From assembly GCA_022496805.1 (NCBI GenBank), contig CM040103.1, positions 2,560,001-2,624,000 on the forward strand: DNA of 64,000 nt, written 5' to 3'. Below, piece after piece: positions 21,603 to 53,134 of the stretch. The notes beneath the pieces were generated by a model. That model was not told the origin of the DNA. It was given only the letters and a program-made list of their open reading frames with translations, and did no database searches. Each line of letters begins with the position of its first letter. The stretch's first letter is position 1. Both the position numbers and the translations under genes were made by a program. Source of the DNA: Pohlia nutans (lineage: Eukaryota > Streptophyta > Bryopsida > Bryales > Mniaceae).

Positions 21603-24010
21603 GCATTTCAACCTACATGGAATGCTAATTTTTAATGATAGAAAATTGCACCTCATAAAACTTTGGGTTTAATAACCAAGCTCAATTTTTAATTAATTTT
21701 TTCATAATGTATGATTTTGTTATAAATTTTCAGTTTTAATATGCATAAACCACTATTGATGTTAGTAGGTGTACCAATAACAGTTTTTCATTTCTAATCC
21801 AATTAGATTGCTAACTTGGTATTCATAATTAATGCTTGTGATAACTAGATTGGGAACTCTTGAAGTTGAAACTGGTACTTTTATAGGTGACCGCAATTGG
21901 TACCTAATAGTTTTTGGTGCTTCTATCTTACCTGTACACTCCTAACATTAAATTGCTTCCTCATCCATGCAAGAAATCTTTACTCATGCCTAAATGCCTG
22001 CAATGAAAACATGCATATGTTTAGACTTTGGTGTGGGGTCTTGAACAAACATACTTTTCATTCACCAGCTTTCCAAAACAGTAAGAGGTGTCACACCTCT
22101 TCAATCCGAGAAGTTTGAATCTGTGAAGATTGAGAACCTATGGAAAAAGTCGTGGAGCCAACCTTGGCCATTCTCTGTGAAGAAGTTGTACCTCCCTTTC
22201 AAGCCGTGTGAAGAATGAGAATGGCCATGGCTTCTCAATCTTCTTCATGGCTTCTCAATCTCCATGCCCATTCTCCACCTCTAGAGGACAATGAAACTTC
22301 TCAATCTTCGGAGAATGGGTCCTCCACGATTCAAGTAGAAAATGTCACGTACACATTATTTGAAGATTGAGAATGGGAAGAAAAAGTTGTGATACCCTTA
22401 CTTCTCCATAGTCATCGTCATCTCCTTCCTTTTTGTTGCCATCACCTTATTCTTCCTCTTCGTGGTCACCTTCCACTTGGTTGTCTTCTTCTTCTTGAGT
22501 TCTTGGAATCATGATCTCTTTAAACTTAGAAAACTCCTTTTCTAATAAGAAATAGAATCGGACCTTTCGAAAGGATCTTGTTTCCAACAATATCCCTCAC
22601 AAATGGGTCCAAGTCATGTGGAAAAATTGGTCTCCTATTCCTCAGAACATCATCAAATGTTTTGTCTTGTAGGAACTGAGCCTTCATATGGAATGAGTCT
22701 ATAGCAAGTTGAAACTTAACTACCATCCTACATGTTTAGTTTTGGCGGAAGTTAAATTATTTTTCCAAATGCCAATTCTCTAGAAAATTAAAAGAGATAT
22801 TTGCCGAAATTTCTAAGAAGATATGTTTACATGGTTTCAAAGGGAATCTGGCTAGTAGAGATCAAAACCGCATGCATTGAGGAATTGATAGTTGGGAGTC
22901 AATTAGCACCCACAAGCTCTTGACTGTGGTCATTTTTTGTCTGTATTTGTAACCTACCGAAATTGAAAATAACTCCAAATTCAATGCCGAACTTCTTTTT
23001 CATTTTTAATTAAATATTCGGGAGCCAACTACTGAAGCTAAATAGGCACTAGTAGAAAAGGTGGCATTGCCGAGGGAGATGCCCAAGCAAAGTGGTATTC
23101 AATTCCACGCATGCACGGTGACTTTACCTGGGCATCTCCATGGGAGCGCCATATTTCTTACTAGTGAGGTTAGGACGGTATACACATTTGTTTTAGTAGT
23201 GATATCTACTTTTGGTGACACAACATTATCCTTGGAGAATGTTTGGTGCTCTCCCATGCCTAACACCCCTCCAGAACATTCATAATTGATCATTTCTAAA
23301 ATTACTATGCTTCTCGGCAGTTCGTCAATGAACTTTTTTTTTCAAAACAAGCATGTTTGAAGCTTTAAGATTTTGATGTATATGATGTTCATTTTGTGCA
23401 AACTAACAATGTATAAAGCTATTCTATATATTAACATCACAACTTGTTAAATGGTGGCTTTTGGTTCAAAACCACCTAGTTTACAATTTTGAAGATGATT
23501 TCTTCAACACTTTTTAGCAAAATTTAATAGGTCTCATCATCAAGATAGCAAATCTGTTCTTCAAGTTCTTGTCTTTCAACACCACTGCATCAACCATGAT
23601 ACGAATGCATGTCGGAAAGAGACTCAACAAAACAATGGGGGGGGGCATCCATGAATCTATGAGGCTATTGGCGTTGAAGTATAGGCCAATCCATTTCAAC
23701 AGGGGCTTTTGGGGTGTAAAGGTGAGGATGAAGCCCGAGGCCTTTTCACCCAAAGAGCCCAAGGTTAAAACGTATTAATTGCCTTGAATAAAGCACTCTT
23801 AGAAAATTACTTTCTGATATTCAGAATGGATGGATGAATTTGGATTATGCCCAAATTCCCTCGAGAAGTCCTAAGCCCTAATAATGAGTTAAAAGGCCAC
23901 ATAAAATGCATTCCCCGAGATGTATTCTAAATTTTTTTCAAAGTGCTTTATGAGATTAGAAGGCATAACCTTCCCTTTAACACCTTCAACATATGGTGTG
24001 CACTATATTT
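21603..24010. other. AT-rich intergenic DNA left of the large transposon
   Basis: Mostly non-coding. A 66-codon minus-strand frame at 22526-22726 (containing FPHDLDPFVRDIVGNKIL) has protein-like composition and is followed by a Glu-rich stretch, so it may be a remnant of a transposon or host exon; I do not recognise it. 22200-22330 has repeated CTTCTCAATCTTC motifs. A CACTA-type MITE lies at 23047-23166. Confidence 0.45.
23047..23166. mobile_element. CACTA-type MITE, copy 3
   Basis: A 120-bp element from CACTAGTAGAAAAGGTGGC to TTTCTTACTAGTG, flanked by AGG on both sides (23044-23046 and 23167-23169), giving a 3-bp target duplication. The interior carries GAGGGAGATGCCCAAGC and its partner on the opposite arm. 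Confidence 0.85.
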
Positions 24011-25203
24011 AGGGCCGGTTTAGACTAAAGCGAGAAGTGCACTAGTCGGTCAAAACGTTTTGTCCAAGATATGGTTATTTGAGGCAACCAATGGGATGCT
24101 AAACAAGATGGAAAGACAACAAAATAATGCCTAATTAAGATCAAGTTTCTTGGGCAACCTCAAAGCCTCGGACATGAAACTTGACTTGTGGAGAACTTCA
24201 ACTTGATTAAAATGCTATTTTTGTGAAAAAATTTGAATTGTACAATTATGAGCTTGCTATGTTACAAAAGATATTGTGATGGTTGGTTCATCCTCATTCT
24301 GGCTTCTTTCTAACTCCCTTGCAAAAAGTATTGCCACATTAGCAGCCATGCTATTTTCTCATTTATACTTGAAGTTCTCCACCGGATAAATCTTGGCCGT
24401 GGCATTAGAGAAAAAATGAACCCTCAAATGGGCCTCCAAGTTTTGACACTTGTAGCTATTTTTGGGGGGCTAATGGGGTAGGGTAAGGACCTCTTTTCTG
24501 ACAAGAAAGTGTCCATATTTTGGGTGAATTTTGGACATTACATGCAAATCTTCAAGTTTGGCAGAAGTATAATCCAATTTTCTATAATTCTAATTGTACC
24601 ACAGATGGGTACAAGGTGGAAGCCCATTAATTAAATCAATTTTTTTATTACACATGTCACTTACTGCTTAAATTTAAAAAAATATAGAATCTCAAAGTAC
24701 CACTATACTACATATAAGAAATCGCTCCTTGTACCTCAGCCCGTGACTCTCTTGAGTACGTGCAACATATTGACCAATCACATTCGACACATACTGCTAG
24801 CCTTGACAACACAAGGGTGTGCATAGATAGGGGAATAGTGGCTACTTTGAACACAGAAGGACAATTTATAAGCAATAAAGGGAACCCATAAAGAGAGTTC
24901 TGAGGACCCATGTGAAGGATCATTTTTTCTATAATGTGTAAACCCCAATTGGTGAATAACAAAATTTTCTCCAATCATATTGCTTCATTTCCCTAAAATT
25001 CTTAACCGGTGAACTTCTCCACCGTAAACACCGTATTAGCAATTTATGCACTTGAGCAAGTGCATTGTTGGATTTAATTGGTTGGAGGCAAAACTGGCCA
25101 TTGTAGAATATTTAACCCCCCAAAAATTTTGAGGTTCTCAATTGCATGGACTTTCATGTACATAATTCATTTGATAATACTGACACACATAAGTTACAAA
25201 AAC

Positions 25204-25784
25204 TTAACCCCTAAACGTCCTCACCTCTGTCCAATTTGGGCAGTTTTGCAAAGAAGCATTATAAAATGCAACTAACATGAATATTTAAAATTTGATGTAT
25301 GAATAAAAGTTATACATCTTGAATTTTAGATCCAATCTATACGGTTAGATCTCTGATTGCTATCACTAATACTTTTCTATAAATTTTGAAACATAAAATA
25401 AAAAATTATTCTGTAATTTGATTACAAATAAGATATTTACAATATGGGGATGAAATTTGTTGTGATGGCTTATAATGTAGTACTCTAGGTGTAGTGATTT
25501 TTGGAGATTTTTCAGAGGCTTAATTTTATGAGTTTTTTTCTTCAAAAACACTTTTAGACTAAAATCTTCAAAATTTTGGGTGAAACACTGCAACACAAAA
25601 TGAGGCATACATTTTTCGATCAAAAACTGTTTGCTTTTCGATCGGATCACACACACATGAAACTAACTTCCCATAAAAAATTCAGTAAAAAAATCACACT
25701 ACAAAAAGTGCATGACGGATGAGAAACTACGGATGAAATCTGTACATCATGCAAAATATGCATGGTTAGGCAATTGGGGGTTAA
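25204..25784. mobile_element. TTAA-flanked MITE, family A copy 2
   Basis: A 581-bp copy, same orientation as 11728-12284, with TTAA at both borders. The left end TTAACCCCTAAACGTCCTC is intact; the right end is diverged (GGCAATTGGGGGTTAA). It lies between the left end of the large transposon and the 3' end of its minus-strand gene, so it probably inserted after the large element arrived. Confidence 0.85.
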
Positions 25785-25933
25785 TCATGAAGCAACAAAT
25801 GATACGTGTAGTATCGTGATATTACAATTCGGAAAATGACCAATACAAAACATTATATTACACCCTTGTACATAAATTTGAAAGTCATGAAAATACCATA
25901 TATATAAAAGATATATATTTGGTCCTACGTAGT

Positions 25934-28900
25934 CTAATCTTGAGTAGTCTGAGGAGTTTCTGGAATCATGGTGGAGGATTGAATCCCAACCTCCTGTCCT
26001 TCTTCGTTCTCCAATTGATGTTGCTCAAGTTGTGTCCGAGTTTTTGAAGGGGTTCCAAGGTCACTATGCTCTAATGCACTTGTCACTATGGCATCCGTCA
26101 TTTGTGAAGGATCGCCTTCAAAAACGGAGTTGATCTCTTCATACTTGTAGTGTCCTATCTCTCCAATACGATGGTATCTCACACCATCAGCATCATAGAA
26201 CACTCCATCTTCTCCTTCAATCATATTGCGTTCTTGTAGGGCCCATCCAAATGATAACGATGGAGTGTCCTTCTCCACTGCTACTTCTGGTGTATGTAGC
26301 AATTATGAGGCCAATGCAGTTGTTTGCGAGGCACGTGTTACACGTTTGGTACACGGTTCTTCAAACATTTGCTCTGTTGCTTCTCCTTCATCATTAACCG
26401 GTTGAGCCTCGGTGGTGTTTGGTGAAATGTCATTTGCTTCTTTGGGTTGCTCCATTGTATCTTCAATGTTCTTTTCTCCCACTCCTCCCACAAGTGCCTC
26501 TAGGTCTAGTGCAGGATCCATATTGTTTTGTTGCACTTCAGAAGGACCTTCTTCTCCTGTTTGATAAAAGTTGGTACGTTGTTTGTCAACAGTATTATAT
26601 GAAGCAGATGACTCATGTTCCTCTGATGAGTCTTTTCGCGAGTCCCTGTTTGTGTCATATGTTACATCCTCTGAATCTTCCTCTGAGTTTTGTCTTTTTC
26701 CATGTTCACCTCGTTCCATTGTATCTTCAGAATGCAAATCTTCTCCTGCTGACCCCATAGTATCAACATCATCATCATTTCCATCTGAGCCATCTTTGTC
26801 GGAGGATTCATGAGGGCTGGAGTGTACTACTTGTGTTGTAGACCGTCTCCTTCCTACCATCGGAACAACATATTCTGGACCAACATCTTCTAAACCAACA
26901 TCTTCTTCATCTGGATCAATGTCTTCTGAATTTGGATTGACATCTTCTTGAACTACACCTTCAGAAACCACTGTTGTTGTTGTTGTCATTTGCATTTGAT
27001 TGCCAAACATAGTCTGCAATGTACTATGCAAGAACCGTGTCCGCGTGGAAGAACCGTCAAGGACAATAACTTGACTACCCACAAATCCATTATGTACTAT
27101 GTCTGCAATGGATGTCGTGATGCCTACTGCAACAAGTCCCCACTTCTCTGGCAAATACGCAAGGACCAATCGATGCAATTCCGTAGGACTTCTCTCTAAC
27201 CGGTCCTCCGCTCGCGGCATTCTACCGTCTGTCCACTTATCCTCAAAAACCACAGGTAGTTTGTTCATACCTCAACGTACATTTTGTGATACTCGCGATT
27301 CATGTGGGTGATGCATTATGATAGCCACATCTCCCAGGACTTGCACACCACGTTCTACTTGTCCACCGTGTTTGAGGTCGTGCACATAGGTCGGCACTGT
27401 TTGCGGTTGGAACATCCACACGCCTCGTAGCCAAGTGCATTCAGGAGACATTGCAATTAAATCTCTCATTCCCTGCTCAAAATATGTTCCCGCAAGAAAC
27501 AAGAACACTGCATTCCAACGTGTAATATTAATCATCCACCTTTACAATTGTCGTAATACTGTTTTATATTCCTCTTCACTCCAAACTGCTTCATCACTTG
27601 CTATGGCGTTTTGTCTGCAATCAAATATCCACAAACAAGGCTCTCCTAATTCTACACATTCCTTTTCAAAGAACCCCCCTCTGCATCGAATTGGAATTCG
27701 ATTTGCATTGTCCCCCCCTGTCGTACAAGGAATGGTGACTTGCCAATCCCATCGTAATTGTGCAGTGTGAGCAACATCACGGCGATATCCTTCGTACCCT
27801 CGTCCTCCTGCTACAATGTCAACATAGTGTTGCCTTATAAATGGAGGTATAAGAACCTCCAACTTTTGTAACCCCGAAACAGACCTCACACTCGGAGTAG
27901 CCCATGCCTTCTTCATGGACTTGTCAATAGCTTCCCCTAACACTTGAAATTGTCGTGCCCCTTCTCTGCCAAATCTTTCCACATCTATGGTAAAGAACTC
28001 TGACAAAGAACCGGGGGGCTCTTTCTGAGACTGCACCATCAGCCAACGGATCGCATTCCGTATTGCTTCTCGTCGTTGAATTCGATCTACTACCCAAGCT
28101 AGAGTACGCTTTGGTGGAGTTGTGCTTGTAGCACTATTGAAATAATACTTTTGAGACTGTCGTCTACCGTCCACAATGGGTTTAGCTGCCAACTCTTGAG
28201 CTAACCGAAAGTACTGTTGTTTTGGTACTCTTGATAGTGGTCTCAGCCATAGACCCTCCATTCTCCTACGATCCACTCGCACATCTACATTGGGATCTAA
28301 AGAGTGTTTTTTTGCGTACTCTTTCCATTTCTTTTCATCATCTTCGCTATACCAAAGTATACCTTTTTCATGGTCCTTGCATACCTGCAATGTTGCAGCA
28401 TAGCAATCCTCATTTTCTTGCCATGCGTGTCGCGTATATTCTAACATTCGCTTTGCTAAACTTCCAAGTGTTGTTGATTTTCCACTCAAAGGCACCGTCC
28501 AATGAAGTGCACTTGCTGCCATTGTGATTGCTTTTACCCTATTTGCATCATCTGTCCGTATATCTGCATTTGGTTTTCCACATGCACTCCATATAGCCCG
28601 CAATTTCACTAGATCTTCGTACATTGTTGTATAGAATTTTCGCTCAAATTCTTTTGCATTGATTCGCACTGATGCTTCAATGTAAAATCTCGGATTGTCA
28701 AACACCATAAAGCGAGCCTTTCTGGTAGCATATTTTGTGTCGAATTCGTTGTCCGACATTAAACCCATAGCATGCTCTAGTTGCGCTTGTTTACATGCTG
28801 CTACGATATGTTGCCCATCAATTGGTTCCCATATAACTCTGTTTTCCAACCACGAAATTCTATTCATGTTCATCATCCCTACATCACTTGTCTGGTGTTG

Positions 28901-30454
28901 CTTCCACACTGCATCAAATACATTCGTTGCATTCTCTGATGCAAATGGAATCTCTTTTTTATGCATTTCCCCGTTTGAGTCAATTACTTCCACCAAGTAT
29001 ACAATGGGTCGTAGTGTCAAATGTGAAATAAGAGCTTCGTCCTTCCCTCTGATTCGTTGGTACATTTCCCTCACTCGTTTCTCTGTCAAACAACGATGGT
29101 TAGTCTCTACATTCTCCACATTTCGAATGTGATCAATTGGAGCATGGAAAATAGCTTCCATCCCCCATAAATACCCAGCGCGGATATCGTCTTCGGATGG
29201 AAAAGTCACCACTGGACCTTTTGAAAATTCGGGGCGTTGAACTTGGGGACAACCTTCATCATTTGACGGTTCGTCTATATCTTCTCTTTCAGCATAATTG
29301 ATACCTTGCTCCAATTCATCGTCGTTTATGCGTGCACCTCTAGCACGTCTAGTACTCGGAGTGCGTACACCTCTAGTACGAGTGCGTACACCTCTAGCAC
29401 GAGTGCGTACACCTCTAACACGAGTGCGTACACCTCTAGCACGAGTGCGTAGACCTTCATCTCGCATGTTTGCCCTAGTAAAAGGAGCCACTGGTGTGCG
29501 TCCTTGAAGTTCATTCCTCTGAATCGTAGATGGTACAACATGAACATTAGATGTCAAATCCTCTGATACATACATATGTTGAGTGGATCCTATTATTGCC
29601 TCCGATTGTTGTCGAGTGTGCATTGCCATACTTCTTAGGACTTCACTGGTAGATGTAGCAATGTTCTGTTCTTCAGCTATAAAGATGTTTGATCCATGTA
29701 ATTGACCTTCATCCCCTCCAACATTGACAGCTGCATGATGCTCAGAAGTGCCAGCTTGTGATATCCCATCAGTCCTTGGTCTAACTCTTCGCGGTGCTGA
29801 ACTGGAAGGAGAGTTAGTATCTTCTGTCTCCACCCTTTCTGGTGATCGAATTCTTCTATTTCGTTCCGCAACAGGTACCCAATTGATATTAACTGCCCTA
29901 GCAAATACCCCATACACATGATCAGTTTCCTCCGGTGCACAAGGGGGAGCTGGTAGAGTGGCTCTCCTAGGTTGAGCATTACGTAAATCGTCATATGCAG
30001 TGTGTTCCATAAACTGCCGTCGAGCTCGTAATACATCTTGAGGTGTAAGGTTCAAAAACTTCTTCACAGCTTCTTCCCGTGCTGACTTCAACTCAAGTGG
30101 CATTGATGTCCATAGTTCTTTAAGCGGTTGCAAAACCCTCAATGGCGGGTCTACATCAAAACAAACTTGGGGTATAGGTGCCATCAATAATTTCCTTTGC
30201 ACTCTGTATTTTACCAAATCGCTATCCGGTGACGTCACAGAGAACAATACATACTCATTGGTTGCAGGGCTGATGTTTAGGATATGCCCAAACTTCTTTG
30301 CCAACGCACACCAATGTCTCCCTTCGATTACTGCATGCTCCGTGATCCATAGCATTGGTTGTTCCGACTCTTCTGCTGAAATCCACCATCCGTGCTTCAC
30401 CCATTCATTATGAGTTTTTGGAGCCATTTCTGAACATGAAGAACAATTAAACAT
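25934..30454 (-). pseudogene. ParB-like + DNA methyltransferase-like fusion with three in-frame stops
   Basis: One reading frame of about 1,506 codons is interrupted by TAA (27542-27544), TGA (27272-27274) and TAA (26303-26305) with no frame change; the first 970 codons are open. A likely alternative start is codon 10 (MAPKTHNEW). Visible parts: a Trp-rich N-terminus; a low-complexity region with GVRTRAR repeats (residues about 335-373); near residue 545 WEPIDGQHIVAACKQ, matching the DGQH/DGHHR core of ParB/sulfiredoxin-fold domains; near residues 935-965 a DNA-methylase-like block (CLWIFDCRQ, then WSEEEYKTVL); and past the stops RSPTELHRLVLAYLPEKWG followed by VIVLDGS, resembling the SAM-binding half. 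The catalytic (D/N)PP(Y/W) position reads DCRQ and the glycine loop is missing, so methylation activity is unlikely. An acidic Ser/Glu/Asp-rich region follows. ParB-methylase fusions are known in phages and some eukaryotic transposons; the role here is inferred. Confidence 0.6.
29335..29455. repeat. 21-bp coding tandem repeat
   Basis: About five 21-bp units (ACGAGTGCGTACACCTCTAG on the plus strand) encode GVRTRAR-type heptads on the minus strand inside the ParB-like gene. The near-identical units suggest recent slippage expansion. An Arg-rich basic linker like this could bind nucleic acid. Confidence 0.85.
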
Positions 30455-31736
30455 CTATCATTACTTCCCCCTATATACATGGATATAGTATGACTCCATT
30501 TTTGCAGTCTATCTACTATATGTTAAATTACAAATACTGAAAAAAAATTGCTAATTAAATAACTTAAAATTTCAAATTCTTATATATTTTTGATATACAT
30601 ATAGGTATATACTTTTATTTTTCTTCCAATATAGAAGTGTACACTATATAAAAAATTGTAGTTAATAAATAGTGTAGTACATAAAGAATATTCTAGATAA
30701 TCACGAGATTTAGAAGTGTTTGACTACTTATTATTTCAACAATAATCACAATGAGAACAAAGTGAGCTCTAAAATACAGAATTAACATCCAATACAAACT
30801 TCAAAGCTCCCCTACTTTCATAAAACAAGACCAAAATATACACAAAGTTCTCTACACAAAGATTTCTTCTAGATCTCTCTCAATTACAATTACCACTTTA
30901 AATAAATTTGTATGATACTTAACACTTAAAATAGACACATTCAACATTTTGAAACTCATATATGGCAAAATGCTCAATAGTTCATGAATATCAAAACCAT
31001 AAAGTAGAATATGAAGTTCATATATTTTTCTTTTTAATTTTTTTTTTCTATAGCACATTCAAATTAGTTTTAAATTATATGGACTTTTGTGAAAGGAAAA
31101 ACACATGAAAAATGTATGTATCTTAACTATCAAGATACTACACAAAGGAATAGAAAAATAATATGGAAACAAATAGGTCTCTAGTTCCATGTTAGCTATC
31201 TCTATGTCACATAGGATTCTTTATGACAGAAGTATGACATTTAAAGTGTTACAAATGTTACATATAAGTACTACTGATTACAAATAACTCACTTTCTACT
31301 ACTAGGCATCTAAGACATTTTTGTGATTTGACAATTATACAAACTATAGTGTATTTTTGGTCTACTAAGCAATAAATATAAATATTTATTGTTGAAGAAT
31401 AATTACAAATAATGAAACATGATTAAACAATAATAGAATTATAAAAAGGAAGCACTATTAAACAATAATGATAAATAATTATAAAAAATGGAGCATCATT
31501 AAAGAATAAAACATTTCACCTAGTTCGATCATAGTGGGCTCCTTATACTCATAGAGGTTAGCATCGAATGAGTTGTAGTACTCTTCAATCCATGGAAAAG
31601 TAGCAAAAATGCTAAACAATCTCTTGAAAATAAACTCATTGGTTGCATGCTATGCATAAATCCCAAGTCCTCCTCTAAAAATACTTGTTGTTACTAAGCT
31701 TATCGAAATTTTACAATAGATTTTCAATCTACCAAG

Positions 31737-32322
31737 TTTAAGCCCTAAACATCACAGGGTCAAATTTTTGAACGACTAACAGATTCAAACTCACTCTACA
31801 TTCTCATCAATGCGTGGATGAAAGTCATCCACTTTTTTAGAGATACTTCACCAATTTCTTGTCCTATCTATTGATTGAATTTATTGATACATGAATACAT
31901 TTAAATTTAAATTTCAAATGTAAAAGTCAGTCAAGTTGTTGACCATGCCAAGATTTCATTGACATTATTTCAAAAGTAGCCTTGCAAAAATGAGGTCATA
32001 GATATAAGGAACACAAAAATTTCAAAGAGTCACTGCGTTTAAGAGTATCTCATTTCAATTTCATTCCAACAAATTTTACTCAAAAATAATTAAAATTTTG
32101 TTCGTAATCAAATGTAGAAGAAATATTTAATTTTAACATTCAATTTTGTAAACTACATATTGGAGATAGTATTGGTGCATTGAACCGTACAAAGATTCTA
32201 AGAATCAAGATCTGGAACTTTCATTTGTATATTAATTCCACAATATTCTTCTAAATATTTATTTATGATGATATTTATGAAATTGTCAATTAGAGGGACA
32301 CCCTGGTACATTTAGAGTTTAA
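31737..32322. mobile_element. decayed TTAA-type element, family E
   Basis: The left end (TTTAAGCCCTAAACATCAC) and right end (CTGGTACATTTAGAGTTTAA) are mutated versions of the ends of the element at 61140-61469, and the two share internal AACAGATTCAAA and GGATGAAAGTCATCC-like sequence. Borders are approximate. Confidence 0.5.
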
Positions 32323-34691
32323 TGAAGTTACTCATAACTAAACCCTAACATTGACGATCCTATAAAACAACCCTCTCCAATGTTGCATAATATCTAAAGA
32401 ATGTTGGCGTGTCTTTATAATTCTGACATCAATAACACAATAACACAAACCAAAAACACACATGCATCGTTCCACACGCAAATTCTTCAACAGAACCTAC
32501 ATACCAAAACCACCCAACTATCTCTTGACAAAAAATAATCACTAGTTCATACGCTTTTAGCATTTCAACAATATTGCAGTAAGTCATGGGTGTAGATATT
32601 GTGTATCAGAATGAACCTGTGTATGAAAATGAATCTCCAGAAGAAAGAACTAGTGTTGAATTATAGAGGCTCTAGGACCCATAAAAAACACATGCTGATA
32701 TGCGGAGGTTGTAAGACCCATGAAATGATATATATTGGGATTCAAATAGGCTCCATGACACATGAAATAATATTCGCTTTGATAATGAGCCAAGCTCCAG
32801 GACCCACGAAATAACCAAATACCTGGTCATTTTGTTCACAATAAAACATTGTTAGAGAGCAACTACTATACGTATTAAGAAACATATAAAGTAGAGGTAC
32901 CCATAGCTAATCTATAGATTTCTTAGAAGCTGCTTTCATGGATCCATAATCCAATACAATTTAAAAAAAATACAACACAACGTTACCCAAAAACCAATAC
33001 ATTGTTGACCAATAAATAGTCACCATCATAGCATTCAGTAGCCTCTATAAGTGCTACCTTCCCACAACAAAATGATGTGGAATATCTCACATCACATCAA
33101 TAGCTATGAGGGCTGATGGCATTAACCAAGAGCAACCTACCATGGTGAATAGTACTCTATGATTTCTAAAAATATATATATATTTTTAAATTATAATTAT
33201 TATATGTGTTTATCATTTCTTGTATTTTTTAATTATTATTTAGAGAGTTTTTAAACTTCTTTCATTGTTTTTAAAAATATAATTCCATAGTGATATTTAA
33301 TTATTTTCGACATTGAGCTGGCAGGATAAGTTTCGCCCTCATCGAATCACCCCTCCGAAGCTCCGTGGGGTTGTAGAATTTGATAAAACATATACTATTA
33401 CCACAACCGAAATTTAGCGGACGAATCTAACAATGAAAAATCTTCCAAATCCTCGGTATTACACTTATAACTCTTTTATATCACCCATGTAGTAACAAAC
33501 GTACATGAGTCCAAAACTTGGCATCTGGAAAGTAGCCAATTACATGTGTACATACTTCTAGGACAACCCTAACTTGGAAAGGAAAGAGCTTTGCTATTAT
33601 CTACAGTTCAAGTAGGGGATACAAGAATCATCAGGCAACAGACCCCTCCTGTACCAACAACTTATCTGTTTATGTTAGTAAGTGGGATATTAATTGCAAA
33701 ATGTACATGACCACTGATCTTTGAACGAGAAAGGGGGTTGTTTCTTTCCCTTCAAAAGTATTCCGCATAGACACTCAAACTAAGAAATTCATATAGTGAT
33801 AAAAAATTTGATCTCAAGAGTTTGGCTCAATATTATAAACAAAATAATTTCTCCACATCTCCTAATGAAATGCTTAATTTCAGTGATAGGTACATCTCCC
33901 AATGAAATGCTTAAATAATTTCTCCACATCTCCCAATGAAATGCTTAAATTTTTATTCCATGCAGCATATGAGGTTAGAACAGTTCTTTTGGATTGTGCA
34001 GACACGATTTGAATTGAACCAAGTGACATTATTGGTCGCTAGGAGTACGTGATCATTTCGATCATTCCTTCTCCATTTCGTAATTTCATGCAACACGGTC
34101 TCATATGCGATTCCCTGTGTGTTCCCTCCGAGTCTCACTGTTCCCATTCAGTCTTGAAAGCTGCTTATTCACCGGTTTCATGCACTCACCTGTTCCCATT
34201 CAGTCTTGTAAGCTGCTTACTCACCTGCTTGTAAAAGGACAGTTTAACAACAGAGGCTCGGTGAAAGGACAGTCAACTTTTGAGGCTCGGTGAAAAAAGT
34301 GAGACTGCAAGGGAAAGGCACGCTCCCTGTGATGCTAGATTCTGAAATACACACTCATCTTCGATTGTTTGCGCTAGCTGCACTGAACAATTAAGTCAAC
34401 TAGCCGCTTATTCACTCCAGGAGCCACATCGATCGATTTCGTACTAACAATCAATTGCCAAACCTGCGATTCTTTACAATGCTAGAGCTAGAATCTGTCA
34501 TGTAGCCAAGGTTGTCGATCAGACAGGTGATCGATCTGTCATGTAGCCAGACTTTTCGATCAGACAGGTGATCGATATCGACATCTTCCGATCGTGGGTA
34601 ACCAGTCGCTGCTGCTATTTTTAGCCATTCTAGAGTGGGTGAGTGCATAGAACAAGGGTTTCCTCGAATTGAAGTGGCGGACGAGCGAGCT

Positions 34692-34881
34692 ATGGCTGAT
34701 GATTCCAGCAACAATATTCTAAGCTTGCGGAACAAAGTGGCAGTACGTGGTGCTAGGAGGTAGCGATGGGATAGGAAGAGAGATAGTGCTGACGTTTATG
34801 AAACAAGGGGCAAACGTGGTGTTTACGTACTTGAGCAACGAGGAGAAAGCGTTGAAGTTGCAGGGTCTCAGCGAATCGTGA
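34692..34881 (+). pseudogene. short-chain dehydrogenase (SDR) N-terminal fragment, frameshifted
   Basis: From the ATG at 34692 the frame reads MADDSSNNILSLRNKVAV; after a small frame-shifting insertion it continues in another frame as GGSDGIGREIVLTFMKQGAN, then VVFTYLSNEEKA, to a stop at 34879-34881. GGSDGIG is the TGxxxGxG-type NAD(P)-binding turn of classical SDR enzymes, and the GAnVvf..l step is also present. Only about 60 of the usual 250 residues remain. It sits inside the large transposon, so it may be a captured host-gene fragment. Confidence 0.7.
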
Positions 34882-35596
34882 CTAGTGAGTGAGTACCAAG
34901 CAAGATTAGGCGAGTCCCAAGTAGGAGTGAGTACTAAGCAGGAACGAGCGAATATCAAGTAGGAGTGAGCAATCTTGCAGAATTTGTGAGCTTCATGCAA
35001 ACTCTGGACTAGCTAGGGCTAAGAATTCCATCATTCAGAGATGCAACTGGGAACAAAAAACATGAGTTCAAAATCATAACCATGAGTTTGAAAACAGGTT
35101 ACCAGCGATGCACGCGTACTGTAAGAGCCATGAGCCTGTGGAGATGAGCCTTCCGCACAAACTTGGAGAAGTCTACCAGTGGCCCCTCCGTAACTCTTGA
35201 TGCTACCAGCCTCTCTCGCACGCTCTCCTTCACCCTAGCAAGCAGGAATATTGTCGTAGGATCACCACCAAAACCCACTGATCTCCTCCCTAAGCTTTCA
35301 ACCTCGACGCTTTTGATTCCTATTGTCAGTCACTTCAGAAATTCAGGAGTCACAGGCGACACAACAGACAAGAAAAAGTGGTCCTTTAGTGAGTCAAAAG
35401 AGACAACTACAGAGTCAAAAGCGTCAGGTTTGCTACCAGTTTTCAACAAGAAACGACTTTGCAGAAGAAGAAACAATGACTTTGGAGAAAGGTGGCCGAC
35501 TGTCAACGCAGTCATCCCTCCGGAGCTCTGTGGGGTCTTCCAGATGACGTTTTCCAAACTTGTTGAGTAATTCTCACATTGTAAGTTTCATATACT

Positions 35597-36574
35597 TTAA
35601 CCCCTCACCGCTTGAAGTCCAAACATGTGTAAAAGCTGACTTGCTTTTCAAGTCCTATAAGTCTAAATCTCAGTGAGGTATGAAAATCTCAACCGTACAA
35701 TATTGTAGTGTGCATGTTGTAGATGGTGTGAACAAAATTTGGGGTCATTTGACCGTATAGATTGAAAGATTATAATGTTTTAGTGTTGAAAAAAGATGCT
35801 GAAATTTTCTTAAAAACACATTTGGAGGTGAAATTCGATTTCTAAACGTACTCAAATGAAAAAAAATTAAACTACAAAGTGATTCAAACCAAAAAACAAA
35901 CACTTTGGTGAAAAAAATCTCATTCAATTGACTCATTGTGTCTGCAAAATTGTTTTGAAATGTCAAAAAACAGTGAAAAAAGAGGCAAAAAATCACATCT
36001 ATGTCTGAACCTACCTCTACTAAAATGCTTCTCAGTCACTCATAACCTCTTGGATTCATATGAAATTTTAACCTTATAAACAAGACTGGTATGCGCAACT
36101 TTTCCAACAAAAATTATTGAAAACGGACCATGTGTGAAGAAGTTATAAGCTGCCGAAGTTCATTGTAATGAAAAAATGTCTGGATTTGAACTTCGAATTG
36201 CTCCCAAACATTCAAAACAACTTGGATTGACATGAAAATTTCAGCACAATAACTAGGCTTTATTGAGAACAAAACCCAAATTTTTTTATTGAAAACAAAC
36301 ATTTGATGAGAAAGATACAAACCCCCAAAGTTGCAGCCATCATAATGCAGTGAGGTGAACTCAAATTGAACCTGTGAACTTCGAATGGGTCTCAAAAACT
36401 CAATACATCTTGAATTGATCTGAAAATTTTACCAATAAAACTAGACTAATATGCGCAACTTTTCCAACAAGTTTTATTGAATTTGGACATTGGATGCAAA
36501 AGTTACAGCACTTTGAATGTTACTGCCAGACTATGAGAGGACACTTTTCGTCCCCTCCGGCGGTGAGGGGTTAA
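35597..36574. mobile_element. 978-bp TTAA-flanked element with internal repeats
   Basis: The ends read TTAACCCCTCACCGCTTG and CCGGCGGTGAGGGGTTAA, an inverted repeat of about 14 bp including TTAA. Internally, three diverged units of about 120-180 bp contain TATGCGCAACTTTTCCAACA or similar (near 36090, 36250 and 36450). No coding capacity. Its ends resemble other families here only in CCCC and TTAA. Confidence 0.8.
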
Positions 36575-37125
36575 CCCAAAACTGTCCACACTATAAGTAC
36601 CCAACAAACTTCATCAATTCCTAACATTTTAAAATATGATATTTTCTATTATTTTTTTCATATCAGTTATTGGTAAACTAATTTACCCAAAAAAATTCCA
36701 TAATTATTTAAATAATAATGAATATTATAAGATCTTTCAAAGTTTTTTTGTTGTACAATTTATAGTAATTTTAAAAATACTTAAATAGTATGAACTTTGT
36801 ATTGTAGTGAAATAAAAATTTAAGTGAAAATTTTAGTGATGAACAACAAGGTGTAGGTGGGATGTTTGTTGAGCTTACATAAAAGAAATTTGATAGAAAA
36901 ACAATTTCTTCAGTGTATATAGGAATTGTAGGATTTTGAGTTGTAAAAAATGCAAATTTAACAACTTTGAAGAATGGTAAATTGGTCTAAAAAACAAAAG
37001 ATAGTCCCGAGGATAGTCCCCACACTTTTTTTTGGGGATTCTTTTCATTTGAAATTAGGCACTACGTCAAAATCAGTGTTTGAAATTAGTAACAACAAAT
37101 TCAACCACTGGATACAACCGACAAC

Positions 37126-37684
37126 GTAACCCTTAAAGGACAAAAAGTTTTTTTAATTTTTAAACAGTATGTTTACAACTTTCATTTCGTGCTTTTTTTT
37201 ATAAACTTCTTTTTGTGCATTATAGTGTACTCCAAAATAAATCACACTATATAATTTATTACTGTGATTGATGAATTTAGAAATTTTTGTCATTGCTCCA
37301 AAGTAAGTCATCAAAAAGTGTTGTTGAGAGTATTTCGGTTTTTCTACAATTTAGACGACGGATAAACCTAAGATTAGAAATTTAAAAGATCAAAAAAAGA
37401 AAATTTTATTTGATACATTATGGAAAAAAAATATGATTGAACAAAACCTCATGGAATCATGCATGTTACAAGTTTACTTGAATTCAAGATATGTAAATTT
37501 TTTGACTTATACATCTCACTTAATATTGATTGTTTTAATAATAAATACCTACAATAGATGGTTTGAGAAATTTAGGAGGAGGATGACTTTTTAATTTTTG
37601 CTAAAAACACTATCATAGAGATCAAAATACAATTTTTAGACCCTATGTGGCCCTCCCAAGGCCACATGGTCCTTTAAGGGTTAA
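37126..37684. mobile_element. TTAA-flanked element, 559 bp
   Basis: The left border is mutated (GTAACCCTTAAAGGAC); the right border reads GGTCCTTTAAGGGTTAA, making an inverted pair. The interior is AT-rich and differs from family B although the ends share the CTTTAAGGACC word. Non-coding. Confidence 0.65.
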
Positions 37685-38319
37685 TAAAGTATATCCAGTA
37701 AATGTTTTGTAGTAAAGAGGTTGATGTGAAGGGAGATTTGTAAGAACAAAAAATACCACGAATCCAAAAGGAGTTGGTTTGAAATTTAGGTATTAAGGTT
37801 TGTAGAGGCCATGAGAGAGCTTTTGGATTAATAATATTATATTTTGAGCATTGAAAAGTATATTGATAATATTATGTTTTGAGCATTGAAAATTAATAAT
37901 ATTATATTTCGGTTTTTCTACAATTTTTCTACAATTTAGGTCTAATTCAATACAATAGGCCTTTGCCCATCCTTACCCCTTTGTAGTAGGCCTTTGCCCA
38001 TCCCTACGGTAGCCCTTTGTCCATACGGCAGCCCTTTGTCCCCTACAACACCAACAATTTTTTTAATTCTATGACCGACTCATCAAGTTTAATTTCTAAA
38101 GCAATTTGAATTATGTCATTTCAAGGGAGACTCTAATCGAGAGAATTTTTCAAAGCTAGTGAATTACCTCAACATTGTCTTAGTGTTATAAAATTTGGTA
38201 TTTGGAGACAGTAATGATGTGACCTCCATCATTTCTTTTGTTTTTTTGGAAGTTTACAAAGGATAAACCAATATTAACTAATCATGCTAAGTTTTACTAA
38301 TCATAAAATTATTCAAAGG

Positions 38320-38894
38320 TTAACGCCTAATTGCCCAACCATGCATATTTTGCATGATGTACGGATTTAAAGTCTGTTTTCTCATCCATCATGTACTTTT
38401 TGCAGTGTGGATTTATTATCGAAACTTTTATGGGAAGATAGCTCCGTGCATGTGTGATCCGATTAGAAAGGGGTGATTTGTGAAATTCTTATGCCTCATT
38501 TCATGTTCTAGTAATCCACCCAAAATCTCAAAGATTTTAGTCTGAAAGTGCTATTGAAAAAGTTAAGTACTAAAATTAAGCAACCAAAAAATCTTCAAAA
38601 ATCACTACACTTAGAGTATTACATTTCAACCCATCACAACAAATTTCATTATTAGATTGACAGTATGTTATTGGTAATCATATTACAAAAGAGTGTTAAA
38701 TTTTAAGTTTGAAATTTAATACACAAATATTGGTGATAGCAATCGCAAATCTAACCGTATGTATAGAATCTAAAATGCATAGTGTGCAACTTTTATTCAT
38801 TCATCAACTTAAAAATATCCCTCTTAGTTGCATTTTAGTATGCAGCTTTGAAAAATTGCCAAATCTAATAAAGATGAGAACGTTTACGAGGTAA
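38320..38894. mobile_element. TTAA-flanked MITE, family A copy 3 (inverted)
   Basis: A copy of about 575 bp inverted relative to 11728 and 25204. It starts TTAACGCCTAATTGCCC, the complement of the diverged right end at 25784, and ends in a decayed form (GAACGTTTACGAGGTAA). The internal sequence is shared throughout. Confidence 0.75.
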
Positions 38895-41800
38895 TGCTGT
38901 TAAATTCTTAAAATAATATGTAATTTTCTCTTGGAAGCCTAACCGTATGAATAATTTAAATAAATTATGTCCTACATTTTGTATATTGAACCAAACTTCA
39001 TCAAACATCTGGAAGACACATATTATAACACATTTATGTTTTGTCCAGTACCCTCGGGCTTGTAGGGGTTAAAGTACTTGTATAATTATTTCTGCAACAT
39101 GTAATAGTTTTTTACTATTCATAGAAACAATATTCGTAGTACTATTTAAAATGGAAATGTAATTAAGTTATTTAGGATTCAGTTTACTAGATCAATAGTT
39201 TATGCAAAGTCTTCCAAATTTGTATGGAAAAAAAATAATCGTCCTCAAATTAAATTATTTTCAAGTCCATTAAATTAATCATGTAAATTTATGGGATGGA
39301 CATGAGTTTTTGTTTATTGTGGTTCTGAAATTGTTTTCAGATGCTATAAATTATAACGTACTCTACCTCCATTATGGGCAAAAAGGTTCTTAGTAATTAT
39401 TTTACCATAATTGGAATTTGAGGCACATATGTATGATTTGTTTTTAAATGTCGTCATTTTGTAGAAGTAAATTATAAAGTTTTTGGCATTGCTATAGAAA
39501 CACCGTTGCAAGTCATTCATCCATTGCAATTAACAACGGTCCATGTCAAATCGTGAATTGTACTAAATACCCTAATTGTCATTACTTTGTCATATTTATG
39601 GTGTAATTAATGAGATTCTAGGCAATGTAGTTCTTGAATATATGAGATTGTTTGCACAAACGTCATATAATTTTTTTATCTTGATAGAGTATGACTTAAA
39701 ATAATTATTGTTTACCTAACATAGGACAAACTACACTAGAATCTACTTTTAAAAGGATGCACCAATAGTAGTCCTTGCTATACATGCTCTTTAAGCATGG
39801 ATAAACTCTTTATTTTCAACGGTTTTTGAACTAGAGTTGTAATTCAGGGTACAAGTATTTTCTCTTTTGCATCCCAAACTGTGTTATATAATATCCAGGT
39901 TTTAGATAGAACGTTGCAAACAGTAATGAAATATGAAATTTGTTTTTGTGGAGGAATAGTTGCATGATATATCTGTATCATTGGTGGCATGAACTATGCA
40001 TACATTGTAAGTTTGTTAATGTTGTGACAGCAGAGGCGGTAAATTTCAAAATAAAGTAATTAGTTCATGCAAAAGTGTCACATGTCATGTTTTGATTGGC
40101 ATAGTGTGACATGGAAATTAAATTTTGACAACAGGTTGTCTGAATCAGACCCTTGCAAAGTGAAGCCCTTTATATGGTTGCAGTGGAGATCATGAAGTAG
40201 GAGTTTCGAAATGCTAGTTCAATCTCTGGCATCTTAGACGTACAGGTAAGTCTTCAAAACATTTTGAGCCATCTCAGTGAGACTAGTGTACAGTACAATA
40301 GATTTTTTTATGTGAATACAAAGAGAATGTGTGAATTTGTTTACATAATCATTAACGTTTAAATAACCAAGTGTTCTCACTAGGATATTTAAAAACATAG
40401 CAAGTTCTCACAATGTCAATTTTGATTTTACTATTATTGAGATTTTTAGTGAACGTGAGGAATTTCAAGAGTGTTGTCATAATATAATTTTTTTCCCACT
40501 GGATATTGGTAAACAAAGTTCAGTTGTCCAAAGACTTTCTTTCGTGAGGCCAAGTAGTTTAAACAACATTAGAGGAAAAATGAACCTCCAAGAGGGTCCT
40601 TTGAGTTTCACAAGCGTGGGTCTTAGTGGCCTATTCAAGGACAAAAACTCTGACTTAAATTAGTTACCATCTGATGTGAATTTACAATAGTAGGTTTAGT
40701 TGCGGAGAAGGTTAATTTCCATTTTCTTTGTGTATTTTAAAAAATATATTTTGTTAGGAAACTAGTGTACACATGCAGTGGATGGAACGTCTTCTGAGGA
40801 CTAAAAGAATACATAACATCTAAGACACTAACTTCTATCTTCAATGGAAATGATTTGACTACTCTCTTGTCATGATTATCTGTCCTGCTAAGAGTGGGTG
40901 GGTATAGGGTTTTACTTCATCTTCTAATTAGATACTACATTTAAATCTAATCTAGGATCCCTCTGGAAACTGTATGGAAGGGCTCTCTCGAGGGTCCATT
41001 ATTTCTTTAACTAATGCTAAACTACTCCAAAAGGTATAAAATTTGACACAAAAGCAAATGACATGATGTTATTTAGGATGGTAACAAAAATTGAAGAAGA
41101 AAAAATAAAAATAAAAATAAAATTAAAGAGAAAAAATCTCCGGAGCTCAAAAATTTCATTGCAAGAGGAGTCACAAAATTCTAGTGCGGTTGGGTAGGGT
41201 GGAGAAATTTAACTTCATTAAGAGATATAAATTGGAGAATTTGCAGTTTTTTGTAATTTTTTTTTTCCTACTTTGAACATAGAAAATAGTATTTGTCTTT
41301 GCCCTTTGGATTGAGATATTCCCAAAAAACCAAGCTCCCAATACAATTAAATGTGTTTGTCAATGGTTTGAACCTCCGTCATTTACAATATTGTTTTGAA
41401 TATGTTATATCATTCTCCTACTTATCAACTTTGGAATACAATTAACTAACATTTTGTAAATTGTGAAAGTGAAGAGCAACAAATTTCTGCAATGAAACAT
41501 TTTCAAAATAGGAAGAAAATTAGCAATTGAGAATTTTGGGCGGGTTTTAATTTCCTTTTATTTTCATGCAAATGTATATATCTTATAATCTATATAGTCA
41601 AGTATTGTGAACTTTTGTGTGCACAATCCTTTAGTTTTAAAAGTTCAAATTCAATTGTTGAATTTTGAAAAAAAGGTTTTTTTTGAAATTGTGCCCTAGA
41701 GCTTAGAAATGGCAGTATTGTAGTGTTTTCGAGCGAAACAGTTATGGTCCTTTAGGGGTTAAATTCCACCATGCATGAGCATTGTACTATGTGTCAAGAG

Positions 41801-41925
41801 ACCAATAAGAATATATCATTGTGAAGAAGAAGATAACATAACATGTGCAAACACTTAATTTGGATTTGATGAATTCATTTTATTCAACGTTATTGAAAGG
41901 ATTTTCAATGTAAAAACTTCATCAG

Positions 41926-42499
41926 TTAACCCCTACCTACCAGAATGTCCATGTTTTGGGCAATGGGCATATTTCATCTGTAATTTCTCATCCGTCATGC
42001 ACGGTTTGCAGTGTAGAATTTTTATTGTAGATTATATGGGAAGATAGTTTCATGCATATGTAATCTGATTAGAAAGGGGATGATTTGTGAAATTTTTATG
42101 CCACACTTCATGTTGTAGTGATTCATCCAAGGTTTTGAAGATTTCAGTGTAAAACTAGTCTAAAAAAAGTCAAATCATAAAATTAAGCAACCAAAAATTT
42201 CCAAATATCACCATACTTAGAGTATTACATTTCATCCAATCACAAAGGGTTTCATCCGTAGATTGTCAATATTTTATTTGTAATTGAATTACAAAATAAT
42301 TTTGAATTTCAAGTTTCAAATTTTATACAAAATTACGAATAACAACAATCATAGATCTAACCTTATGGATAGAAGGTAAAATCCATAACGTACAATTTCT
42401 ATTCATATATGAAATTAAAGATATCCCTATAGGTTGTGTTTTATAACGAATCTTTGCAAAACTGCCGAATTTGGAAAGGGTTCTCAGCATTAGGGGGTA
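41926..42499. mobile_element. TTAA-flanked MITE, family A copy 4 (inverted)
   Basis: Starts TTAACCCCTACCTACC and ends in a mutated border (CATTAGGGGGTACGG) where TTAA has been lost. The interior contains CTCATCCGTCATGCACGG and GGATGATTTGTGAAATTTTT, as in copy 3. Confidence 0.7.
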
Positions 42500-43237
42500 C
42501 GGTGTTTGTAAATACATTATCATATTTCATTTAAAATAATTATACATAGTGAGAAGCTTTTTGAACCAATAGAATGACTTTTAAATAATTTTGACAGGGA
42601 AATAATGTTATTTTTGAAAATAAAAAATTTGAGTTGTTTGGAACACTTTGTAATTGATATGCATTATTGTGAAGAAGTGCATGAAGCCAAGTAGACAGGC
42701 ATTGTATTTTGTTCACTACTACCACATAAAATGAAATTCTTCAATGTATATATTTGAAGAATTGAATAAAATAGTTGTGAACATGAGGTCATGGTACATA
42801 GGATTTGTCCATGTTAATAGTAATGTTTAGACATGTCTTATGAGTTGGTACACTGAAATCATAATATACCGTGGGTACATTCATCTATTGTAACAAATGT
42901 TCATCCAATTTGGATGAATTTTATCACAATATATTTGAAAAATAATTATTGGTACAACCTATTGTAAATCTGGTGGGCTAGCATATATATTGATTTTAGT
43001 GTGGTTATAGTAATTTTTCTAAGACACTCTTCTGCATGTGCAGGTGGGAAGGAATTTCATTCTCAAAAATGAGGGAAGCAATGAACAATGGAGCATTTGG
43101 AAGTCCCGTGGTGAACGCAAATGCCGCCAACAATGCAACTCCGTCACTGACTGTAGGACAAAGCTTGTACTGTTAGACTATTTGACGATGCAAATACATC
43201 GGTACATCCAAGAGCAAAAACACCACAGACGGGCACA

Positions 43238-46236
43238 GTGGAACTGTTAGGGATTGGAGGAAACATCGTTGGAAAAGGGGTGATAGATGAGAATATCAAA
43301 TGCGGGATGGAACTTCATGCCGTGAAATTATGTCCTTCCGAGGTATCTGTTAAGGTTGTACATGTTGTTGATGGTACAGCGTGGACGGGGGAGCTCGTTG
43401 GAGAACAATTACAACAATGTCTTGGACTTGTCATACGATGGGAAAGAGCACACATCCGAGCGGCAGAGCCGGTCATCGCTACTTCTATAGAATCTAGAGA
43501 AGGTCAAAAATTTTCCTTCCACACTATAGTAGCACCTCAGTACGAATTCCATGAAGAAGACATATCACTAAATCCATCAGATGATTCTCCAAACACTCCC
43601 TTGCAGTCTAGTTCACGAGACGGCGTATCTCCTGCAACGCAAGAATCGCAGTGTAGCCTAGACAACATGACATGTATAGAGGGGTTGCCAGTTGAAAGAC
43701 CAAGAAGAAAGTATTCCATGCCGAATCGAAGGAGGCACGAGCAACCCCTTCGAGATAGGAGGGAGGCACGAAGTCAGAAGGTGACTTTGAACAGCGTTGC
43801 AGCAGCGAAGGGAAAAGGTGGTTGCAAGAAGAATTGTTTGAAGGAAGTTAGTGAGAAATATATTCTTGATCAGCGCTACATGGTAAGGGGTCAAAAATTC
43901 AATGAACGGGCAACATGGATGTTGCAAATGTTGAACGCATTTTACTCTCGTACACAGGGGGTTAGGAAGGACAAGTACAACACAAAATTGGATGGAGTCG
44001 CCGTGTGCAATGCCTGCTATGCAACCACATTAGGATACTCTCAAAGGCGTTTCAAACAATTGAAAATGTCTCATCAAGTGTATGGAAAAGTTGCAGCTGT
44101 GCACGGGAACACATGCAAACTAAGAGAGCGTGCACAGATGTCGGCAGCACGTGAAAGCTTTCAGGAGTTCGTGAAAGAGGCATGCTGCACGCAACCAAAT
44201 CGACAGATACGGAAGAAGATTGATAACGTTGTTGTGCCATTGGTGTTACTCCCTATGAATACAACAAAGTTGGATGTTTTCCACTACGTGAACAAGGAAG
44301 TAAAGAAGATGGTGGATGGGAATCCGATATCGCTCTCGTCATTTTATAGGATGTGGCGGACTGAATATCCTCATGTACAAATCCCGCCGTTCTCTAGGTT
44401 TGCCAAATGCTACCACTGTTGGGAGTATAAGTGCGGAATCGAGGCAACCACCAATGCAGCTGCGAAAGTGGAGATAAAGAAGTTGTACATGGTGCACATT
44501 CGTCGTCAAATGGAAGAGAGACGAGACTATTGGACGTTCAAGAGGTCAGCGATTATAACCCCAGACGTATACATGTCTATCATTGTAGACGGTATGGACC
44601 AAAACACTACTATGGTTCCTAAAATGAGGCAAATAGTGAAGAACATAGAGTCACGGTTTGTGAAAACTCATTTGTGCGGGGTGCTTGTCCACGGGATTGG
44701 ATTGTATGCGGATGTGTGGATAGACGCACACCACAAATACGACAGCAACCAAGTAGTCACTACGGTCATGCACGTCATCAACGATGTGAAGCGCAAAAAG
44801 GGTAGAGTACCTCCTACTTTGCGAATTCAAGCGGATAACTGCACGCAAGAGAACAAGAATGTGTACATGTTTGCCCTTTGTGCTTCTCTAGTTGGGTTAG
44901 GAATCTTTCAAGAAGTGCAGTTGTGCTTTTTGATAGTGGGTCACACACACGAAGACATCGATCAGCGTTTCAGCATAATATCAAATACACTGAAGAGAAC
45001 AGACATTGACTCGTTGCAAGAGCTGCTACAACTGGTGGAGAAAGGAACGTCATATACGGAGGCGTTCGTGAGTGCACGACATCTGGAAACTGTTTGGGAC
45101 TGGAAGTCATTCATTACTCCTCATCTCCAAACAGGGGGTGATACATTGACGGGCATCACATTCCCACACCACATGAGGTTCTATATGGAGAACGGCATGC
45201 CTCGAGTACAACACAAACACTTCAGTGGAGACGCTTGGGGTCCGGTCGATGGGCACATGTGTTTACGTTCGTTGCCGAGTACTTCGCAGACGCCTGAATT
45301 AGCAAAAGTATTCGCAGCAGATGACAGGGAGTTGAGGGCATTGCAGGAGTTTATTGCGTATAAGGAGAGGTGTGTAAGTAGATTACAGTATGTAGAAAAG
45401 AACCTGCGAGCCATCGATGAGGCAAAGTGGCTAATGCAGTATCTTATAGAATTTCCCACAAAAGATAAAAGGGAAGAGAGATCCATACCGTTCTGGCCAA
45501 GCGAAGGAAGAGAGAGCGTAATTGAAAACGCACAGCCGGAGGAACTGCTTCAGAGCGGACAGAATTTGAATGCGATAATTAGATCAACAGATTTAATTTT
45601 ATCAACAATGCCTGATCCGGAAGGCCGAGGTTACTTTGGTCCTCGCAGAGGGCGGATATCAACGGTGTCTGTGAGAAGAACGCCACACCAGAACCGAGAT
45701 GTTGGAATAGGCCAAACATCAACAAGGATGCACACTTCTGGGACGGAGGATCCTTTTCCACCATTTGATCCAACTAATGACATCAAAGTGGGACAATTTG
45801 TGGCGCTGACCGTAGAACACAGTGAGGTACAAGCTAGAGTACCATTCTACGTGGGCAAGGTACTAGAGTTTGGACAACGCTCGCGGGCCTTGAAGATGAA
45901 GGTTTTGTGGTATTGGCCCATCATGCGGGTAGGAATGCAAAGGCTACAGGGTTCAAACAGAGAACGATATGCAACTGCATGGAAGCAACTTGGGAGCCGT
46001 CTGGTGAAAGACATGGTTGGGTTGATAAAGAAGCAGCTATATTTGCATGGGATGATGTTCCAATAAGAACAAGGACTATGTCTGAATCAAGCTATAATAT
46101 TCCGATCCATGGCGTCATGACGGAAACAAGGATCCGCATTCCAATTCATGCTAAACCTCATATGATAGAGTATATAGCGCTACAGCTGGAGGAAATGGAC
46201 AACATACGCTTGCAGAATGACATAGATGCTTATTAA
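43238..46236 (+). pseudogene. DUF7869-type RNase H-fold transposase-like gene, frameshifted near 3' end
   Basis: The frame opens at 43238 and the first in-frame ATG is at 43307; it stays open to 46066 (about 940 codons). The C-terminus continues in another frame to 46236: WYWP...ATAWK in frame one is followed by ATWEPSGERHGWVDKEAA in the next, pointing to one indel near 45985. Family-like features: VAVCNACYATTLGYSQRRF (about residue 255); SLSSFYRMWRTEYPHVQIP followed by a Cys cluster FAKCYHCWEYKC (about 390); and a probable RNase H-fold core with acidic residues in IIVDGMDQ (about 450), IQADNCTQENKN (about 530) and VGHTHEDIDQRF (about 567). This matches the DUF7869 class found in plants, algae and animals, which I infer to be a DDE-type transposase. 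A BAH-like segment (KVGQFVAL...VPFYVGKVLEF) sits near the C-terminus. An upstream exon is possible. Confidence 0.7.
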
Positions 46237-46680
46237 TTGACAAGATTATTTTCTATACAATACTATTCAGTGGAACATAGTATCAAAGTTTTATCTTAGA
46301 CAAAAGATAATAGAGTATACAATATAGCTTAGACTATGTGAATGCCTTCAGAATGACATGATGATAGTGTAGACAATGCGATGACATTTGTAATCTAAAT
46401 TGTTACTCTAAAATAACAATTTGCATGGTCAGTATGTGAGCTATGCAGCATTCAATGTGCATGCAACAATATTTGTAATCCTAGAGTCTTTTGCTCTATT
46501 CAAAAACTTTATATTTATTAGTGCTACATATTCTATACAATCAAGTATTGTGTACTTAGAAATTTACTCCCCCACAAATTGCAATGTTGAACTACATTGT
46601 CAAAACAGAAGACAAGTGCACTTTTAATTTTGCAAGTGCATGAATTGCTAATACAGTGTTCGTAGTCTAAACCAGCCCTT

Positions 46681-52708: not shown

Positions 52709-53134
52709 ATGGCGGGAGCGTTGTCGGTGGCAGGTTTCAAGGAGCTGGTGGCGAAGTACGGCAAAGTGGCGGTGGGGGTGCACATGACGGTATCCGCCGT
52801 GTCAGTAACAAGCTGCTACGCAGCGATCAAGAGCAACGTAGACGTGGGGGCGGTGTTGCAGAGGGTGGGGTTGTACAGCGCCAGCATGGAGAAAGAGGAA
52901 GCAGACGACCTCCACAAATACGAAGCGATGGCGTCGGAGGAATCCGCTAAACCCCTAGAAGAAGAAGAGGATCGGCAGAAGGCGGTGCACGCTGCCGTGT
53001 CCGGAGGTGGAGCGCTGGCGCTGGCGTTTCTGTGCAACAAAGCGCTCATGCCCATCCGCATCCCCATCACCGTCGCCCTCACTCCTCCCGTGGCCCGCAT
53101 GCTGGCCCGACGAAACTTGTTCAAAAGCCCTTGA
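52709..53134 (+). CDS. DUF1279/FAM210-like membrane protein
   Basis: A single-exon 141-residue protein starting at ATG 52709 (gcgATGG context). It has the whole DUF1279 (FAM210) pattern: KYGKVAVGVHMTVSAVSVTS, then YAAIKSNVDVGAVLQRVGL, an acidic linker (LEEEEDRQKA), a second hydrophobic segment (AVSGGGALALAFLCNKAL), and the closing PIRIPITVALTPPVARML. Two membrane segments are predicted. Animal FAM210 proteins act in mitochondria; plant members are organellar or membrane proteins of unsettled function. No clear targeting peptide is visible ahead of the domain. The gene stands alone, and its 3' flank is tandemly amplified. Confidence 0.9.
   Translation: MAGALSVAGFKELVAKYGKVAVGVHMTVSAVSVTSCYAAIKSNVDVGAVLQRVGLYSASMEKEEADDLHKYEAMASEESAKPLEEEEDRQKAVHAAVSGGGALALAFLCNKALMPIRIPITVALTPPVARMLARRNLFKSP

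Follow-up and report, generated by a model that had tools for sequence, protein, structure and literature searches.

A decayed 22.7-kb copy of a probable two-gene DNA transposon in Pohlia nutans, with a predicted DUF7869 transposase and a large companion gene

The 64,000-nucleotide stretch of Pohlia nutans DNA analysed here (the window) contains, with a probability that we put at roughly 0.7, a large cut-and-paste DNA transposon in a decayed state, whose two genes encode a DUF7869 transposase and an accessory companion. The original prediction of a transposon held in that real inverted ends bracket two large genes facing outward, with open reading frames of 970 aa on the minus strand and 969 aa on the plus strand. 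The sequence of the element comprises inverted termini, these divergent genes, nested repeats and lesions by which both genes are broken.

The DUF7869 gene extends over 43081..46236 (+). Its main frame is 43157-46066, its first residues and last part sit in other frames, and the frameshifts are located close to 43.16 and 45.97 kb. A public relative that is 96% identical (P0005) has a single uninterrupted frame, indicating that the window copy was broken by two frameshifts. Consistent with this, nearly all of the distance between P0005 and the window protein fell on the window branch of the tree, as expected of a decaying copy.

A Pfam scan of the plus-strand protein (P0001) returned the DUF7869 domain (E 9e-52, residues 499-688) and one sub-threshold match, and nothing else. 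The motifs DGMD, QADNC and GHTHEDID and the Cys pairs previously noted in this protein were all present. The predicted model contained an RNase H-like catalytic fold with three acidic residues at the right places, and the core was assigned to about residues 450-637 (44504..45067, +) from the model, its fold matches and the conserved acidic residues. D478/D481 lie at the end of strand 1 and were conserved in 25/25 sequences, D481 being in a loop with pLDDT below 50; D560 is at the end of strand 4 (22/24), and D600 and D602 follow strand 5 (21/22 each). E599 is less likely to be catalytic, as it was replaced by S or C in 4/22. Prediction shows the DUF7869 protein to have an RNase H-like DDE/D catalytic core and to fold like a DDE/D transposase. 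PDB sequence searches with the protein gave no convincing match (none at E 1; two weak, unrelated rows), and no relatives were found in viral contigs, phage records or prokaryote genome contigs.

The companion gene (26303..30454, -) has in-frame stops at 27542-27544 and 27272-27274. Its family consists of 10 relatives, 40-98% identical over the part searched. The IDGQH motif attributed to the minus-strand protein was present, and it belongs to the most conserved module of the companion (28787..28837, -; here VIWEPIDGQHIVAACKQ), identified by conservation of WEP(I/V)DGQH in all 10 members reaching the module among the 11 aligned. Two of the public copies were 97% identical to the window companion (P0004 and P0030), and P0030 was without a stop at both places where the window copy has one. 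Towards its end, P0004 leaves the frame shared by the others, and P0030 diverges at its two ends; these differences may be lesions or may reflect the limits of short contigs. A 21-bp in-frame tandem repeat encoding RTRARGV-type units was observed at 29359-29456, with fewer units in P0004. Companion relatives were not found in viral contigs. The fold model of the companion was poor (pLDDT 43); in it, the DGQH motif occupied a predicted strand-turn-helix and the C-terminal half a predicted pattern of alternating strands and helices.

The element also carries later or foreign pieces. A 581-bp nested repeat with TTAACCCC...GGGGTTAA ends lies at 25204..25784 (+), and further copies were found at 38320..38894 (-) and 41917..42478 (-), giving three inside the element; a fourth lies outside it, at 11728-12284. 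Those of the four 560-580-bp repeats that have clear borders were flanked by TTAA and ended CCCC.../...GGGG. These repeats represent a non-autonomous, piggyBac-like element that targets TTAA. Another kind of nested repeat, TTAACCCCTCACCGC...GCGGTGAGGGGTTAA (978 bp, 35597..36574), had longer TTAACCCCTCACCGC inverted ends and appears to be another non-autonomous TTAA-type element. The segment 34750..34878 (+) matched 2uvd_A in the PDB sequence search (E 9.1e-6, 35 residues) and is probably the N-terminal coding exon fragment of a short-chain dehydrogenase gene, either captured or from a nested host gene. Together with a 997-bp stretch in the left terminus, these additions bring the extra DNA to about 3.7 kb in an element of 22.7 kb. 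Outside the element, TTAACCCC...GGGGTTAA units were seen at 56742-57208 (467 bp) and 61140-61469 (330 bp), and the plus strand of the whole window had 15 occurrences of TTAACCCC. The rest of the window held an ORF with a FAM210A/B-like domain (52652-53134, E 8.7e-25), apparently a host gene and one that points to a eukaryotic genome, and inverted pairs of dispersed elements at 484-795/58433-58743 and 47987-48401/55498-55912, with identities of 94% and 97%. No Rfam family reached its gathering threshold anywhere in the window.

Several observations bear on whether the two genes belong together. Both lie within the same terminal repeats in the window, and near-identical public copies exist for both (P0005 for the DUF7869 gene, P0004 and P0030 for the companion). 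The tree of 24 DUF7869 relatives contained a near-window group of 5, a single sequence (P0013), a clade B of 7 and outer clades totalling 11; that of the 10 companion relatives contained a near-window group of 4 and a clade B of 6. On the protein trees, the two sets of clades look alike, as they would had the genes travelled together. This similarity between public proteins is the sole basis for pairing beyond the window. The 11 outer DUF7869 relatives yielded no companion, which may reflect later acquisition or a fast-evolving gene that was missed. The two proteins had no detectable domain in common, with none of 16 profile comparisons above 0.8 per cent.

The absence of a detected companion from the outer clades would also agree with a real transposon whose minus-strand gene has no role in transposition, having been captured as a passenger or belonging to a nested element of its own; the probable dehydrogenase exon fragment and the several nested repeats already contained in the element point the same way. 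This explanation was judged unlikely. The companion represents a conserved family, with six of its 10 relatives predicted as proteins of 1,205-1,344 residues, and its clade pattern resembles that of the DUF7869 protein. It also faces outward, opposite the transposase, and such an opposed pair of outward-facing genes is an arrangement known for two-gene transposons.

The minus-strand gene thus looks like part of the element, as the original prediction of an accessory gene would have it, but the ParB-methylase homology on which its description drew was without family, profile or motif support. For the 11 companion members, Pfam, NCBIfam, PHROGs and PADLOC listed neither a ParB nor a methylase family. 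The phage proteins behind the yardstick profiles were 18 adenine methylases and 31 ParB-methylases. In the positive control, the methylase and ParB-methylase profiles found each other at 99.8 per cent, and the negative controls gave 0.1-0.4 per cent. Against these yardsticks, the ParB-like, middle and methylase-like segments of the companion scored 0.1-0.5 per cent and the N-terminal segment at most 2.3 per cent; the ParB-like segment scored 0.2 per cent with the phage ParB-methylases, and the methylase-like segment 0.2-0.3 per cent compared with the 99.8 per cent of the positive control. The supposed place of a DPPY motif read DCR in 11/11 members. A (D/N/S)PP(Y/F/W/H) motif was absent from all 11 at any position, as were DPFxG and FxGSG, taken from the SAM-binding motif DPFxGSG. 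A PDB sequence search with the companion returned two unrelated weak rows only. The listed fold matches of its model included no methylase, ParB or DndB, and at a pLDDT of 43 they are uninformative.

By these comparisons of sequence and profile, the companion is not supported as a ParB or methylase homologue. A more diverged relationship, in which it is a degenerate protein of ParB/DGQHR-type and adenine-methylase-like halves serving end binding or self-marking, would draw on the invariance of WEP(I/V)DGQH within a predicted strand-turn-helix and on the alternating strands and helices predicted for the C-terminal half. The model offering these features is too poor to judge by, family searches and DPPY-type and DPFxGSG-type motifs failed in all 11 members, and the profile values (0.1-2.3 per cent) stand far from the positive control; we consider this explanation slightly less probable even than that of a passenger gene.

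The termini were delimited by pattern match and by alignment of the two ends. The proposed 17-bp inverted ends agreed exactly with their pattern and lie on opposite strands, at 24011-24027 (+) and 46663-46679 (-), placing the left border at 24011, as proposed, and the right border at 46679 instead of 46680. With as many as 3 mismatches allowed, the pattern matched the window at these two places only; in shuffled sequences the mean was 0.14 matches, and two matches were reached in 1 of 100 shuffles. A second inverted pair was found within the element, 25027-25054 with 46633-46660, the right copy directly inside the right 17-bp end and the left copy 1 kb inside the left end. Upon omission of the intervening 997 bp (24028..25024), the ends became collinear, with an ungapped alignment of 47 bp (42/47 identical) and a local score of 69, whereas the intact stretch scored 29. 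When the 3 kb inside the left end was compared with the inner 100 bp of the right one, the score was 46, a value reached in 0/300 shuffles (maximum 33); the best score among 19 other window tiles was 33.

Most simply, these alignments suggest a 47-bp terminal inverted repeat, continuous at the right (46633..46679, -) and divided at the left, through a later nested insertion, into an outer 17 bp (24011..24027, +) and a displaced inner 30 bp (25025..25054, +). The 997-bp stretch itself was without recognisable ends of its own, and the inverted repeat at its ends was not significant (score reached in 69/500 shuffles). That the two ends are unrelated small elements bracketing the genes by chance would suit a single known pair of ends with the left one split, but it is very improbable given the 42/47 ungapped inverted match, the failure of any of the 19 other tiles to reach the inner-end score and the end of the transposase gene only about 440 bp from the right terminus.

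Nine registers (-4 to +4) were compared for a target-site duplication, and one alone, in which the repeat starts at GGGC, gave an exact duplication of 2-12 bp. This was TTA, at 24009..24011 on the left and 46679..46681 on the right. TTA is a weak candidate for the duplication, since three bases in one copy prove little. No exact duplication of at least 4 bp was seen at any of these registers in this decayed copy.

In the two-gene transposon favoured here, the DUF7869 protein would bind the 47-bp termini, possibly with its Cys pairs as zinc ligands, excise the element, and cut and join the ends. Insertion would create a short duplication, perhaps the 3-bp TTA. Less surely, the companion would be an accessory that accompanies the transposase and binds the DNA of the element. 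It might be required in the transpososome as a further protein bound to the ends, or it might counteract silencing and so maintain expression of the element. The latter option has precedents, among them the VANC proteins of plant VANDAL elements. Another is provided by the TET/JBP dioxygenase genes carried by fungal transposons, including KDZ (Kyakuja-Dileera-Zisupton) elements, where several lineages have such genes and these likely aid escape from methylation-based silencing, according to PMC12730594.

A broader and tentative proposal, rather doubtful at present, is that DUF7869 elements constitute a superfamily, as yet unnamed, of giant DDE transposons in eukaryotes. In one of its branches the transposase would have a permanent partner, an orphan protein of about 1,300 residues organised around the DGQH module, which binds element DNA for end assembly or anti-silencing. 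DUF7869, a conserved domain without an assigned function, gains a testable job in the cutting and pasting of DNA. Should the orphan partner prove to be a regular feature of its branch, it would represent a novel type of accessory with a role like that of the dioxygenase genes in fungal transposons, and would offer a direct way to study how silencing is evaded, or distant ends are brought together, in giant elements.

Searches of the literature returned no paper on DUF7869. No KDZ transposon with ParB and methylase genes was described in the limited literature searched, and a limited search on adenine methylation, eukaryotic transposons and ParB gave no such element among titles and the starts of abstracts. 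The likeness of KDZ elements to the present element is that of a eukaryotic DNA transposon whose transposase is paired with a second gene. Kinship with KDZ was not supported, since the KDZ transposase domain was absent from the Pfam scan of P0001. A CxC3 hit in the companion scored 12.7 bits (E 0.11), below the curated cut-off of 26.6. Target-site duplications of 8 bp for Zisupton and a Dileera family and of 7 bp for Kyakuja are given in PMC12730594, whereas no exact duplication longer than 3 bp is visible in the decayed window copy. The companion also differs from the second genes of the fungal TET/JBP carriers in that no dioxygenase family was listed for it.

With retroviral integrases and mariner-type transposases the likeness is in predicted fold only, that is, an RNase H-like core with acidic residues at matching places. 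The DUF7869 protein differs from them in lacking a convincing PDB sequence match, in the spacing of 40-42 between the second and third acidic residues, and in its extra Cys-rich, N-terminal and C-terminal regions.

PIF/Harbinger elements contain two genes within short inverted ends, one for a DDE transposase and one for a second protein; their ends begin with GG and they make a 3-bp TTA/TWA duplication. The transposase described here differs in carrying DUF7869, the Harbinger-type domain being absent in the Pfam scan, and its companion (about 1,300 aa in the longer relatives) has no Myb/SANT domain in the 11 members checked. The element resembles PIF/Harbinger in the pairing of a transposase with a second protein within inverted ends and in ends that start with GG; its TTA is a candidate counterpart of their 3-bp duplication.
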